Shown: piece after piece, positions 53,432 to 57,494 of the stretch
How the letters are laid out: the number at the start of each line of letters is the position of its first letter
Position numbering within the stretch: position 1 is the first letter of the stretch
From: Terriglobales bacterium
Lineage (GTDB): Bacteria; Acidobacteriota; Terriglobia; Terriglobales; Acidobacteriaceae
Direction: 5' to 3'
Length of the DNA: 64,000 nucleotides
NCBI GenBank assembly: GCA_025936825.1
Contig: JAICSO010000002.1
Span: forward strand, 248,001-312,000
Made by a program: the position numbers and the translations under genes
Notes under the pieces: model-generated
The model's input: only the letters and a program-made list of their open reading frames with translations
Database searches by the model: none
Told to the model about the DNA's origin: nothing

Positions 53432-55657
53432 ATGCCTGTTTTGCGTGTCGTCATCCTCTGGCATCAACATCAGCCTTTCTATAAAGACCTGGTCACGGGT
53501 GAGTACCGTCTGCCATGGGTGCGGTTGCATGCCTTGAAAGACTACTACGGAATGGTCAAACTGCTGGACGAGTTCCCCGACGTCCACCAGACGTTCAACC
53601 TTGTCCCATCGCTGATCACGCAAATTCAGGATTACGAGAGCGGTTCGACACACGACCCTTTTTTCCGCGTTGCCTCCAAACCTGCACGCGATTTGAGCCT
53701 GGAAGAGCGTCGGTTCGCGCTGCAGTATTTGTTCCAGGCCAATCCCGTTCACCTGATCGGCCGCTACCCGCGTTATGCCGAGCTCTGGGACCGCTTTCAG
53801 AGTGTCGGCTCGAATCCTGATCGCGCCGACAAATTCTTTCAGCGCCAGGATTACACCGACCTTCAGGTTCTCTCGCAGCTCGCATGGTTCGATGAATTCT
53901 TCCTGCAGGAACCCGAAATCGCGGAATTGGTTCGCAAGGGCCGCAACTACTCGCTTGAAGATCAGAATTTTGTCGTTCGGCAGCAAATTGATCTGATCAA
54001 ACGAGTGCTTCCGGCGCACGCCAAAGCAGCGAAAGAGGGAAGAATTGAGCTCTCCACGTCGCCGTTTTATCATCCGATTTTGCCGCTGGTGTGCGACACG
54101 AATCAGGGCGCGGTTTCTACGCCCGGCTTGCCGCTGCCGCAGAACCGCTTTCGCCATCCTGAAGACGCGCGCGAGCAGTTGCAACGCGGCCTCGATCTTC
54201 ACGAAAATGTTTTTGGGGTTCGCCCGCAAGGTGTCTGGCCGTCCGAAGGCAGTGTCTCCGAGGAGGTGCTCGGCATTGCCGCTGGCCTCGGCGTGAACTG
54301 GATGGCAACCGACGAAGGCGTGCTCGCGCGCACTCTCGGCATGTCGTTTATGCGCGACGGGCGCGGCCGCGTCCCCGATGTTTCTGCCGGAAAGCTCTAC
54401 AACATTCATCGCTTCGAGAGCAATCAAACGCACATGCACCTCCTCTTCCGCGATCACGCGCTCTCCGATCTGATCGGTTTCGTCTATTCCGGAATGACTG
54501 CACGGGATGCTGCCGCTCACCTCATGCAAAACATCAAGGATGCCGCGCAACCAATAATGAGCACGGGGATTGATGCTGTTGTCCCTGTCATCCTCGACGG
54601 CGAAAATGCCTGGGAATACTATCCCGAATCCGGGCGCGAATTCCTCCGTTACTTTTACGATATGCTGCAGAACGACCATTCGGTCGAGGCAGTCACAGTC
54701 TCCGAAGCGATTGCCCGGCACAAGAATTTCAACGTGCTGCATTCGCTTACTCCCGGCTCCTGGATTCATGCCAACTTCAATGTTTGGATCGGCGCGCCCG
54801 AAGATAACCGTTCTTGGGATTACCTTTACCATGCGCGCAACTTCTATGCGCAGGCCTCGTCCGGATGTTCCGAGGAGCAGCGCAAACTCGCGAAAGAAGA
54901 ACTATTCATTGCTGAGGGTAGCGACTGGAACTGGTGGTACGGTCCTGAGCATCACTCCGCGAACGACCGCGACTTCGACGAGCTTTATCGCAAGCACCTG
55001 TCGAATGTGTATCAGGCCTTGGGCGCCACCCCGCCCGACTATCTTGCTCAGCCCATCATCAGCGGGACAGTTCAGCCTCTATTCACGCCGCAAACCAACT
55101 ACATCCATCCTCGGATTTCCGGCGACATGATTCGTTACTTCGAGTGGATGGGTGCGGCCCACTACACCGCCGATCGCCGCCAAGGGGCCATGCACGGCAA
55201 AGTTTTTCTGATGGACTCGATCTATGCGGGCATCGATGACAAGAATATTTATGGCCGGCTCGATTTCACCGCAGGCATTCCCGAAGGTGATTTCGAAGTT
55301 GTCGTGACCCTCGAGTCCTGGCCGGAACGCGCCGTGCGTCCTCGGCGATCAATTCGACTCTCGGCAGAAGTTGTAGATAGGGAACTCTCGGCCCCCCGCA
55401 TTTCCGATAACGGTGACACGCTGCCAAGCGACGGCGTTCGCGCGGTGCTGTCTAAGAACTTCGAGTTCAAAGTGCCGCTGTCTCTGCTCTATGCGACACC
55501 GGTGGAATCTGCCTGGCCATCCGATGAGGCGGCCACCAAAATTCGCCTCCGCTTCAGCATCTGGCAAAACCGGCTCCCCGCTGACGCCCTTCCCGTCGAA
55601 GGCTGGCTGGACTTGCGACTCCTGCCCGAGATGGAGTTGATGGCCTTGGCCCACTAA
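53432..55657 (+). CDS. Glycoside hydrolase family 57 protein
   Basis: A 741-residue GH57 enzyme (alpha-amylase, 4-alpha-glucanotransferase or amylopullulanase type). Conserved regions visible in order are VILWHQHQPFY (region 1, HQP), NLVPSLITQI, the nucleophile region GVWPSEGSVSEEVL (region 3, Glu), and the acid in VPVILDGENAWEYYP (region 4, Asp). The C-terminal beta-rich domain (FEVVVTLESWPERAVRPRRSIRL) follows. There is no signal peptide, so it acts on cytoplasmic glucans such as glycogen. It is divergent from glgB. The ATG at 53432 has no strong ribosome binding site. A perfect stem-loop follows the stop. Confidence 0.93.
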   Translation: MPVLRVVILWHQHQPFYKDLVTGEYRLPWVRLHALKDYYGMVKLLDEFPDVHQTFNLVPSLITQIQDYESGSTHDPFFRVASKPARDLSLEERRFALQYLFQANPVHLIGRYPRYAELWDRFQSVGSNPDRADKFFQRQDYTDLQVLSQLAWFDEFFLQEPEIAELVRKGRNYSLEDQNFVVRQQIDLIKRVLPAHAKAAKEGRIELSTSPFYHPILPLVCDTNQGAVSTPGLPLPQNRFRHPEDAREQLQRGLDLHENVFGVRPQGVWPSEGSVSEEVLGIAAGLGVNWMATDEGVLARTLGMSFMRDGRGRVPDVSAGKLYNIHRFESNQTHMHLLFRDHALSDLIGFVYSGMTARDAAAHLMQNIKDAAQPIMSTGIDAVVPVILDGENAWEYYPESGREFLRYFYDMLQNDHSVEAVTVSEAIARHKNFNVLHSLTPGSWIHANFNVWIGAPEDNRSWDYLYHARNFYAQASSGCSEEQRKLAKEELFIAEGSDWNWWYGPEHHSANDRDFDELYRKHLSNVYQALGATPPDYLAQPIISGTVQPLFTPQTNYIHPRISGDMIRYFEWMGAAHYTADRRQGAMHGKVFLMDSIYAGIDDKNIYGRLDFTAGIPEGDFEVVVTLESWPERAVRPRRSIRLSAEVVDRELSAPRISDNGDTLPSDGVRAVLSKNFEFKVPLSLLYATPVESAWPSDEAATKIRLRFSIWQNRLPADALPVEGWLDLRLLPEMELMALAH

Positions 55658-55660
55658 ATT

Positions 55661-55686
55661 GTGTGGGGCGGACAGTCCTGTCCGCC
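55661..55686. terminator. Stem-loop GGCGGACAG/CTGTCCGCC after GH57 gene
   Basis: A perfect 9-bp stem (loop TC) begins nine bases after the GH57 stop, preceded by GTGTGGG and followed by AAGAG. It sits between two convergent genes and could end either transcript, though no T-run follows. Lead and stem type match 10136-10160. Confidence 0.55.
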
Positions 55687-55719
55687 AAGAGAGTTCCGGT
55701 GCCAGATGTAGGAGATGAC

Positions 55720-56232
55720 CTACGCAGGTGGCTTCGTCACGAGTTGCTTGACTGCCGTCAGCACTTCTTCCACGGGGGCCCGGTCCAGTTGGTTCTCTCC
55801 ACGATAGATGTATCGCACCACTCCCGACCAATCGATCACTAGCGTCGCAGGGTGCGCGATGCGAATGGCATCATGCCCAAACGAATGGTACAGCCCATAC
55901 GCCTTCGTGACCGCACGATCCTCATCCAACAAGAAGGGAAATGTGCTCGGATGAGCCCGCAGATACTTCTCCGGCTTCCAGATCCCATGCCGTTTCTCGG
56001 CGGCGATGTACGCCAAGCCCACGCCTAATCTTTCGAGTTCTTGCGCATACGGCTCCAACTGAGCCAGCCGTTCCCGGCAGTTCGGTCACCACGTGCCGCG
56101 CAGGAACTCAAGAATCAATGGTCCGCGCGCGAGCAGGTCCGCAAGCAGGAAATTGCCTTCGCGGTTCGCAGCCAACAGCGTGAACGACGGTGCTTTGGAT
56201 TCGACATCGAGAGTCTCTGTTTTCCCCTGCAT
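55720..56232 (-). CDS. Peroxiredoxin-like protein with in-frame TGA at the active-site Cys (probable selenoprotein)
   Basis: Reading TGA 56088-56086 as selenocysteine gives one 170-residue AhpC/TSA-like (peroxiredoxin/thioredoxin fold) protein. It starts MQGKTETLDVESKAPSFTLL at ATG 56232 and has PLILEFLRGTW-U-PNCRERLAQLEPYAQELE, with U at residue 49. The usual family motif is R-G-x-W-C-P-x-C, so TGA replaces exactly the first catalytic Cys; the second Cys (residue 52) is kept. Downstream similarity is complete: VGLAYIAAEKRHG, HPSTFPFLLDEDRAVTKAYGLYH, TLVIDWSGVVRYIYRGENQLDRAP. A stem-loop starts 20 bases after the TGA. The start overlaps the upstream stop by one base (TAATG). It probably reduces peroxides. 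A nonsense mutation of TGC/TGT is the alternative. Confidence 0.8.
56050..56070 (-). promoter_or_regulatory. Candidate bacterial SECIS stem-loop
   Basis: In the mRNA sense a 5-bp stem GGCUC/GAGCC with loop AGUUG lies at 56065-56051. Its loop begins 25 bases after the UGA and has G in its second position. An alternative 5-bp stem CGGCU/AGCCG spans 56070-56050. Bacterial SECIS elements sit inside the coding region within about 16-37 bases of UGA with a G near the loop start, which this fits. The outer stem is short, so folding should be tested. Confidence 0.45.
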
Positions 56233-57494
56233 TATGACGCGGCGCTCTCCTCAGACGACCGACCTTCCTCGTGGCTGGCCTTCGACAGTTTTCTCAATGA
56301 CAGATGCTCCCGATGCGCAAACGTCAGCCCCACAGGAATGCACGACATGAACGTCACTAGCCAAAGCAGAATTCCGCAGCTCAAGGCCAGTTCCGGAGGG
56401 ATGCCATATACCACTTGCAGCGCGCTGATCACCGCCAGTTGGCTTCCGCCTCCTACCGCGGGCAACTGTACGACAGATCCCACCATGCTGAAACCCATCA
56501 ATAAGAGGACATGAGGCAGATCGAGGCTGGAAAGGTGCGGGCGATCTCCCACTTTTTTTACCCGCTTGTTCTGCCGATACAGCCAGAGATCGCCTTTGTA
56601 CTGCTTCAAAGAGTAGTTCTTTGCCTCTAGCGCGGCCTGGAGGTTGGCGATATTTTCGTTGGTGAGAGGTTGCCCCGCAATTTCGGGCAAGCCTGAAACA
56701 CTGGCGGTCTCGACATCCACGGAGAGTTGCTGCTCTGCCTGCGCCTGCTCCGGCGGATACGAGTGCGCAACCTCGCGATACGCCAAAGCGATCATGAACC
56801 ACATCAGCAGCGAGATCCCGATCAACTTCAGCAGGGCTTTCCCGCTGGCTACTGTGTTCAAGCCATCGCCGAACGCACGAATTTTTTGATCGACTGCATG
56901 CGCCAGGCGTTTCGAAAATCGTGCAGTCAGATTGTGAAAGAACACCGCGACATCGTGCTGCCGCTTTCGCACCAGCACCGCCATGAACGCTGCGAATGCG
57001 ACCACTCCGCAGAGCACCAGTGCGGCAATCTTAAACTTGTGCAAGTAGGGATTGGCACGGATCACCGTCGAGAAAAACACGTCCACAGTCATCAACACTG
57101 TGAAGGCGCCGATGTCGAAAATGCGCTCCACCGTCCACACGCCGATCTGCGATGCGACGGAAAGATTCTCGCGCCTGGCTATTAGATACGGTCGAATGAA
57201 CTCACCCGGACGTCCCAGCAGGGCCAGTCCGGTAAAGCCCACGAAGGTAGGGGACACGAGGTACGAAGTTCGGCTCTTGCACACCGGCTCGAGAAAGACC
57301 TTCCACCGCCAGGCCCGCAACACATATGTCACGTAGATGAGAGCAATCGCGGCCGCAATACGCAGGGGAGAAACGTGACTCGCGGTACGAAACCGTGCCC
57401 AATCAAAGCTACGCCAGTGCTGCACCTGGAAATAGACCAGCACCCCCAGAATCACCACCACGACTGCAGTCGTCACAATCTGCTTTTTGTTCAT
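56232..57494 (-). CDS. Lysylphosphatidylglycerol synthase TM-region family protein (UPF0104)
   Basis: A 420-residue membrane protein with about eight helices of the LPG_synthase_TM/AglD2 family. Conserved parts are IYVTYVLRAWRWKVFL, GFTGLALLGRPGEFIRPYLIARREN (the R-P-G-E-x-x-R-P signature), WTVERIFDIGAFTVL, and the late helix GSVVQLPAVGGGSQLAVISALQVVYGIP. A soluble loop of about 90 residues (roughly 230-320) is inserted between helices. Family members move lipids or are parts of MprF; a stand-alone member like this is probably a lipid flippase or transporter. It is coupled (TAATG) to the peroxiredoxin-like gene. Confidence 0.87.
   Translation of the reverse strand: MNKKQIVTTAVVVVILGVLVYFQVQHWRSFDWARFRTASHVSPLRIAAAIALIYVTYVLRAWRWKVFLEPVCKSRTSYLVSPTFVGFTGLALLGRPGEFIRPYLIARRENLSVASQIGVWTVERIFDIGAFTVLMTVDVFFSTVIRANPYLHKFKIAALVLCGVVAFAAFMAVLVRKRQHDVAVFFHNLTARFSKRLAHAVDQKIRAFGDGLNTVASGKALLKLIGISLLMWFMIALAYREVAHSYPPEQAQAEQQLSVDVETASVSGLPEIAGQPLTNENIANLQAALEAKNYSLKQYKGDLWLYRQNKRVKKVGDRPHLSSLDLPHVLLLMGFSMVGSVVQLPAVGGGSQLAVISALQVVYGIPPELALSCGILLWLVTFMSCIPVGLTFAHREHLSLRKLSKASHEEGRSSEESAAS

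Follow-up and report, generated by a model that had tools for sequence, protein, structure and literature searches.

A reading frame on the minus strand of the window (the 64,000-nucleotide stretch of DNA analysed here) is interrupted by a single in-frame TGA codon within an active-site motif, which raises the questions of whether that codon is decoded as selenocysteine (Sec, U) and of what such a residue would do in the product. From the frame, its conservation, the Sec machinery other than SelB, a hairpin after the TGA and a modelled fold, all obtained by computation, we infer with high confidence that the gene encodes a selenoprotein, in which Sec would be inserted at codon 49 through SelB and the hairpin and a peroxiredoxin fold would carry a UxxC motif. 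The features of the locus are as follows.

53432..55657, plus strand: GH57 glycosidase gene, convergent neighbour (domain match)
55720..56232, minus strand: predicted selenoprotein reading frame, Prx-like (Redoxin / AhpC-TSA), with U49 (frame and Pfam)
55720..56058, minus strand: TTG-started ORF of 112 aa, the product of a conventional caller, covering the C-terminal part of what is likely the true gene (ORF list)
56050..56066, minus strand: predicted apical hairpin of a bacterial SECIS, UGGCUC-AGUUG-GAGCCG, with G at loop position 2 and the loop 25 nt past the UGA (RNAalifold, bSECIS geometry)
56077..56079, minus strand: TGC codon 52, second residue of UxxC, aligned with the peroxiredoxin peroxidatic Cys (alignments)
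56086..56088, minus strand: TGA codon 49, predicted Sec of W-U-P-N-C (UxxC) (frame and orthologue comparison)
56232..57494, minus strand: LPG_synthase_TM membrane protein gene, upstream, whose TAA overlaps the selenoprotein ATG by 1 nt (Pfam and coordinates)

Reading frame and local gene context

The stretch 56232-55720 is a single 513-nt frame from ATG to TAG, encoding 170 residues when TGA is read as U, and its sole internal stop is TGA 56088-56086 at codon 49, which gives W-U-P-N-C; the other two frames of the same strand contain 6 and 3 stops over the same stretch. The top Pfam match of the read-through product is Redoxin (72.1 bits, cut-off 26.6), AhpC-TSA also scores above its cut-off (68.2 bits against 26), and conserved protein sequence flanks the UGA on both sides. 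A first-pass annotation of this DNA had described the frame as intact on either side of the TGA, which these matches bear out, and had expected conventional calling to leave a 112-residue C-terminal piece, which is the TTG-started ORF at 56058-55720. Automatic annotation would reduce this gene of a soil bacterium to a fragment without an active site.

The 1-nt overlap with the upstream gene, also reported in that annotation, is present in the window but is not general, being absent from the same-genus genomes G092 and G027. In G092 the upstream gene is an enolase on the opposite strand and thus divergent, an arrangement that G027 shares (the enolase was checked by name in G092 and assigned in G027 by its likeness to the G092 copy). 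A near-identical GH57 protein is likewise convergent in G027. An Rfam search of 55600-56400 in the window gave no match up to E 1.

Conservation of the TGA codon and of the hairpin that follows it

When 120 genomes of the family were queried with the read-through protein, 36 orthologues were obtained at E < 1e-30, the window's own included, together with one piece at a contig edge in G061. All 37 loci were fetched; the codon was read in 36 (35 TGA and one TGC), and the last, G009, has TGA beside a frameshift, such that codon 49 is TGA in 36 of 37 orthologue genomes and TGC in one, G067. The copies of G001 and G009 are frameshifted and that of G061 is truncated by the contig end. Because TGA stands at the same codon in 35 further genomes, chance is excluded, and an error common to all these sequences cannot reasonably account for it when the 21 aligned relatives share 49-70% identity with the window protein. 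The first-pass annotation had proposed looking for homologues with Cys at this position, and G067 is such a case: its genome has TGC at the codon, no SelB and no hairpin, and in an unrooted tree it nests among the Sec forms, with weak support at its nearest fork (91/54). Tree position and absence of SelB suggest a change from Sec to Cys when the Sec machinery was lost. This natural pair of Sec and Cys orthologues is well suited to enzymology.

The strongest synonymous bias in the gene, scored at codons of conserved residues, lies directly past the TGA. Ala+8 is GCT, overall the least used Ala codon in these genes, in 25 of 32 sequences (55.7 bits); Glu+11 is GAG in 31 of 32 (20.6 bits), Arg+6 is CGC in 30 of 34 (18.0 bits) and Gln+9 is CAG in all 32 (14.4 bits). 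The largest biases elsewhere are at Leu+14 (14.8 bits, from 8 sequences), Thr+62 (12.7) and Ala+79 (12.3). RNAalifold places a hairpin at columns 32-37 with 43-48, most commonly of the form GGCUC(A)-GUU-(U)GAGCC. The geometry of bacterial SECIS elements, as given in the passages available from one paper, comprises a loop of 3-9 nt with G in the first two loop positions, an upper stem of 4-16 bp, a loop 16-37 nt after the UGA and a minimum free energy of at most -7.5 kcal/mol (PMC13188914). This geometry is passed by 34 of 34 TGA sequences, whose loops lie 25-26 nt past the UGA with 4-8 pairs counted across mismatches, and the Cys orthologue fails it; the pass rate is 35.8% for synonymous recodings of the same peptides and 23% (1024/4432) at other positions in the genes. 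Hairpin energy has a mean z of -2.49 and is negative in 34 of 34. The isolated hairpin of the window, with its AGUUG loop, 6 bp and 25-nt distance, folds at -8.6 kcal/mol, within the published bSECIS limits; synonymous recodings average -2.2 (sd 2.3), and 1.7% of them are as stable. A family-wide alignment of this kind is unusually direct evidence for a SECIS, with synonymous constraint peaking in the hairpin and the hairpin lost in the Cys orthologue.

Other measures of the RNA are less favourable. The 19-nt stretch was picked from the consensus of the very sequences then tested, and only 21 of 34 such isolated hairpins reach -7.5 kcal/mol. Folding the RNA after the TGA, another check proposed in the first-pass annotation, gives a divided answer: the hairpin fits the bSECIS geometry, but a 61-nt stretch of the window prefers another minimum-free-energy fold and is no more stable than shuffled sequence (z -0.25, with 79 of 200 shuffles at least as stable). 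Covariation is weak: a single pair has changed on both sides, and has done so in two sisters (GCC with GGG); five sequences carry a C-A mismatch at that position, and shuffles reach the covariation score in 20 of 500 cases. A long-stem alternative SECIS (CCGAACUG...CAGUUCGG) was rejected, since 78.7% of its cells are paired and 94.1% of those of the short hairpin; as double changes occur in 7 of its cells, compared with 2 in the short hairpin, it could possibly form the lower stem of the SECIS.

Selenocysteine machinery and alternative readings of the codon

Of the four components for which a genome search had been proposed (selA, selB, selD and tRNA-Sec), all except selB are present in the window's genome (G000). 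A tRNA-Sec with anticodon UCA scores 69 bits (gathering threshold 47), and two weaker hits of the same model at or over 47 are a tRNA-Ser and a tRNA-Leu. SelA scores 551.9 bits and SelD 346.7 bits, each summed over its pieces; the active site of SelD itself carries a TGA (AGU-ASK), at a minus-strand locus (L105, G000:C14). Neither TIGR00475 nor a same-genus SelB query found SelB in the assembly, where the best match is EF-Tu, and PF09107 (SelB) also gave nothing, a model that detects only E. coli among 14 control genomes.

The neighbours of selB in related genomes bear on this gap. In G092 selB adjoins dnaG, and no selB was found beside dnaG in G000; in G027 it adjoins purL and purF, and a purL-like start lies beside selB or at most two frames from it in 4 of 12 selB loci (L065, L066, L071 and L075). 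The names purL, purF and selB in G027, dnaG and enolase in G092, and EF-Tu were checked, and the purL fragments of the 12-locus set were named by likeness. Neither purL nor purF has a full match in G000, purL matching at no more than 31% (E 1.2e-5) and purF at 35% across residues 11-183 within a 628-aa frame. Because these neighbours of selB in G027 are lacking as well, a missing block of the assembly is likelier than true loss of selB, and the genome would illustrate how such a block can make a Sec-using organism appear to be without SelB.

Two other TGA genomes are without SelB, G029, which also lacks purL, and G071 (84% complete), which has purL but no selB. Across the family, SelB occurs in 33 of 36 TGA genomes (in pieces in two) and in 39 of the 83 genomes that lack the orthologue (p 2e-6). 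This comparison is not quite even, since within the TGA group a finer search was given to just those genomes that had no initial match; omitting that search the figures are 31 of 36 against 39 of 83 (p 5e-5). One of the 39, G102, scores below the model cut-off. In the decoding route that we propose, SelA and SelD would make Sec-tRNA(UCA), and SelB, which the organism probably has although the assembly does not, would bind the hairpin 25 nt past UGA 56088-56086 and deliver Sec to codon 49.

Three other accounts of the codon were weighed against this one. Were SelB truly lost and UGA now read as a stop, the gene would be a dying selenoprotein in this organism that its relatives still decode, and the failure of both SelB searches in an assembly rated 99.67% complete speaks for this, as do the SelB-less TGA genomes G029 and G071, the latter with its purL. 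That reading is nevertheless improbable, given that purL and purF have no full match either and G029 is similarly without purL, that tRNA-Sec, SelA and the TGA-bearing SelD all remain, and that frame and hairpin are intact, the latter well below the energy of its synonymous null. A sequencing or assembly error, or the stop of a pseudogene, would have its opening in the single assembly available for the species, but with TGA at the same codon in 35 other family genomes and a SECIS-like constraint following it, the chance of either is negligible. Insertion of another residue, such as Trp by suppression, draws on the fact that a frame open under an altered code does not by itself prove Sec; we regard it as extremely unlikely, since the sole orthologue lacking TGA encodes Cys (TGC) at this position, the genome encodes a tRNA-Sec with anticodon UCA, and the available passages of PMC13188914 list the UxxC context for known selenoprotein families. 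The insertion of selenocysteine proposed in the first-pass annotation thus finds support in the Sec machinery, in the TGA of 36 of 37 orthologue genomes and in a hairpin under synonymous constraint.

Active site and relationship to known selenoproteins

An AlphaFold2 model of the product, beginning at residue 5 of the full protein (model residue 45 is U49), is confident, with a pLDDT of 91.0 and a pTM of 0.88, and its closest solved structures are the peroxiredoxins Bcp4 (Z 23.5, 1.9 A, 157 residues), human Prx4 and AhpE; the product is accordingly modelled as having a peroxiredoxin fold. Alignments set W-U-P-N-C opposite F-S-P-V-C of Aeropyrum Bcp/PrxQ and opposite WCPxC of ResA, in keeping with the earlier assignment of the TGA to the first Cys of a W-C-P-x-C motif. 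In an alignment with nine further AhpC/TSA proteins encoded by this genome, U49 falls opposite the Thr of FTGGU, FTLLC, FTPVC and DTPGC, and C52 opposite the residue that we take to be peroxidatic in those proteins. The PxxxTxxC of typical peroxiredoxins is absent, with Arg at the Pro position and Sec at the Thr position. As judged from these alignments, Sec takes the place of the Thr/Ser in the TxxC motif of peroxiredoxins, and Cys 52 is retained at the peroxidatic position. The first-pass annotation had put Sec at the peroxidatic Cys itself, a placement three residues off, because the alignments set U49 at the Thr/Ser and C52 at the peroxidatic residue. The FTGGU protein of the set is a TxxU peroxiredoxin candidate (L003, G000:C65, 1396-1956; FTGGU-TQQ) with its predicted Sec at the true peroxidatic position.

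The same protein could still act as a peroxidase in which Sec itself performs the peroxidatic step, as the earlier annotation held, and this has a real though minority claim: the model shows the complete fold of a peroxiredoxin, with Bcp4, AhpE and other members of that family as its nearest structures, and a Sec three residues ahead of the peroxidatic position could still attack peroxide. It is weakened by the placing of U49 at the Ser/Thr of SPVC/TxxC and of C52 at the peroxidatic Cys, by the existence in the same genome of the separate FTGGU peroxiredoxin, and by the ResA-type WCxxC proteins that match the same profile. In the scheme that we favour, the active-site helix would begin with U49 and C52 as a UxxC pair; the U49 selenolate would attack a peroxide or a disulfide, as motif and fold suggest, C52 would resolve it to a U49-C52 selenenylsulfide, and a thioredoxin-like partner would reduce the latter. 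More speculatively, and doubtful as yet, this may be an enzyme found throughout an acidobacterial lineage, in which a full peroxiredoxin fold keeps its peroxidatic Cys, Sec replaces the activating Thr/Ser, and peroxide or disulfide chemistry proceeds via the U-C pair. If true, its catalytic plan would be distinct from those of TxxU peroxiredoxins and of thioredoxin-type UxxC proteins.

Beyond the family searched, a named genome collection yielded 31 pattern matches, of which 20 loci were confirmed, and these 20 have acidobacterial names; distant members may occur elsewhere, because the search patterns came from the FLRGTWUPNC subfamily itself. A protein of ~210 aa, predicted to be secreted, belongs to a protein cluster found in 14 of these 20 loci, with 12 positions listed on the plus strand after the selenoprotein gene, and in examples such as L116, L117, L119, L120 and L126 it lies directly past that gene on the same strand. 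In the one example of that size that was scanned (L120) there is a weak Gly-zipper match below the cut-off, and two examples of the cluster have no Pfam match over the cut-off. As an operon partner it was rejected for the window, where the GH57 gene occupies that place.

Other candidates were noted in passing. Besides the FTGGU protein, the AhpC/TSA matches of the window's genome include another with TGA, a deiodinase-like selenoprotein candidate on a minus strand (L033, G000:C30:132500-135500; GSYTUPPF), which scores 85.7 bits against PF00837 (cut-off 27) and 147.7 bits against NF038285, under its cut-off of 250. A further group of TGA-containing genes for peroxiredoxin-like UxxC proteins (L135-L140; FYRGYWUPFC and similar) occurs in the relatives G013, G080, G011, G005, G004 and G115, and the four that were tested (L135, L136, L138 and L140) pass the cut-off of none of the NCBIfam families listed.

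The protein is very probably a UxxC "Prx-like" selenoprotein, a kind already known, belonging to an acidobacterial subfamily that lies below the NCBIfam cut-offs. No model of NCBIfam release 20.0 is passed by the window protein and two orthologues (best 36-52 bits against 120), and a literature search of titles and abstract starts, with most subscription journals outside its scope, found no description of the acidobacterial subfamily. What the gene adds is a conserved selenoprotein subfamily of the Acidobacteriota below the NCBIfam cut-offs tested. In the passages available from each source, predicted prokaryotic selenoproteins include a 'Prx-like thiol:disulfide oxidoreductase' of PF00578 with UxxC/UxxU (PMC13188914, Table 1; PMC9312934) and a 'Redoxin family protein' of PF08534 with UxxC, HEU0032618.1 (PMC13188914, Table 1), and a marine survey includes Prx-like 1 and 3 with UxxC, 'Prx-like 3' being PF08534 (PMC2398784). 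The passages seen from two further sources give four selenoproteins in three families, unnamed there, for Acidobacteria (PMC1794560) and three selenoproteins for Occallatibacter riparius (PMC12013277).

Among these known systems, the PF00578 Prx-like selenoproteins, so far as the passages available describe them, have the same AhpC/TSA domain, a Sec-first UxxC and the same predicted redox class, and the window protein pairs an AhpC-TSA score well over the cut-off with W-U-P-N-C; comparison with their representative, WP_010940744.1, is by description only, and the FLRGTWUPNC subfamily was seen only in the family searched and in the 20 acidobacterial records. The Redoxin selenoproteins of PF08534 (HEU0032618.1, 'Prx-like 3') share the Redoxin domain and UxxC with the window protein and, compared by description only from partial sources, may be the same subfamily. 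SelL-related redox proteins, NF040769, are the best NCBIfam match of the window protein, at 49 bits far under the cut-off of 120. The TxxU Sec peroxiredoxins, of which the FTGGU candidate of the same genome is an example, share the AhpC/TSA domain and a Sec in the active-site motif, but theirs is at the peroxidatic position, whereas that predicted for the window protein stands three residues earlier, at the position of the Thr.
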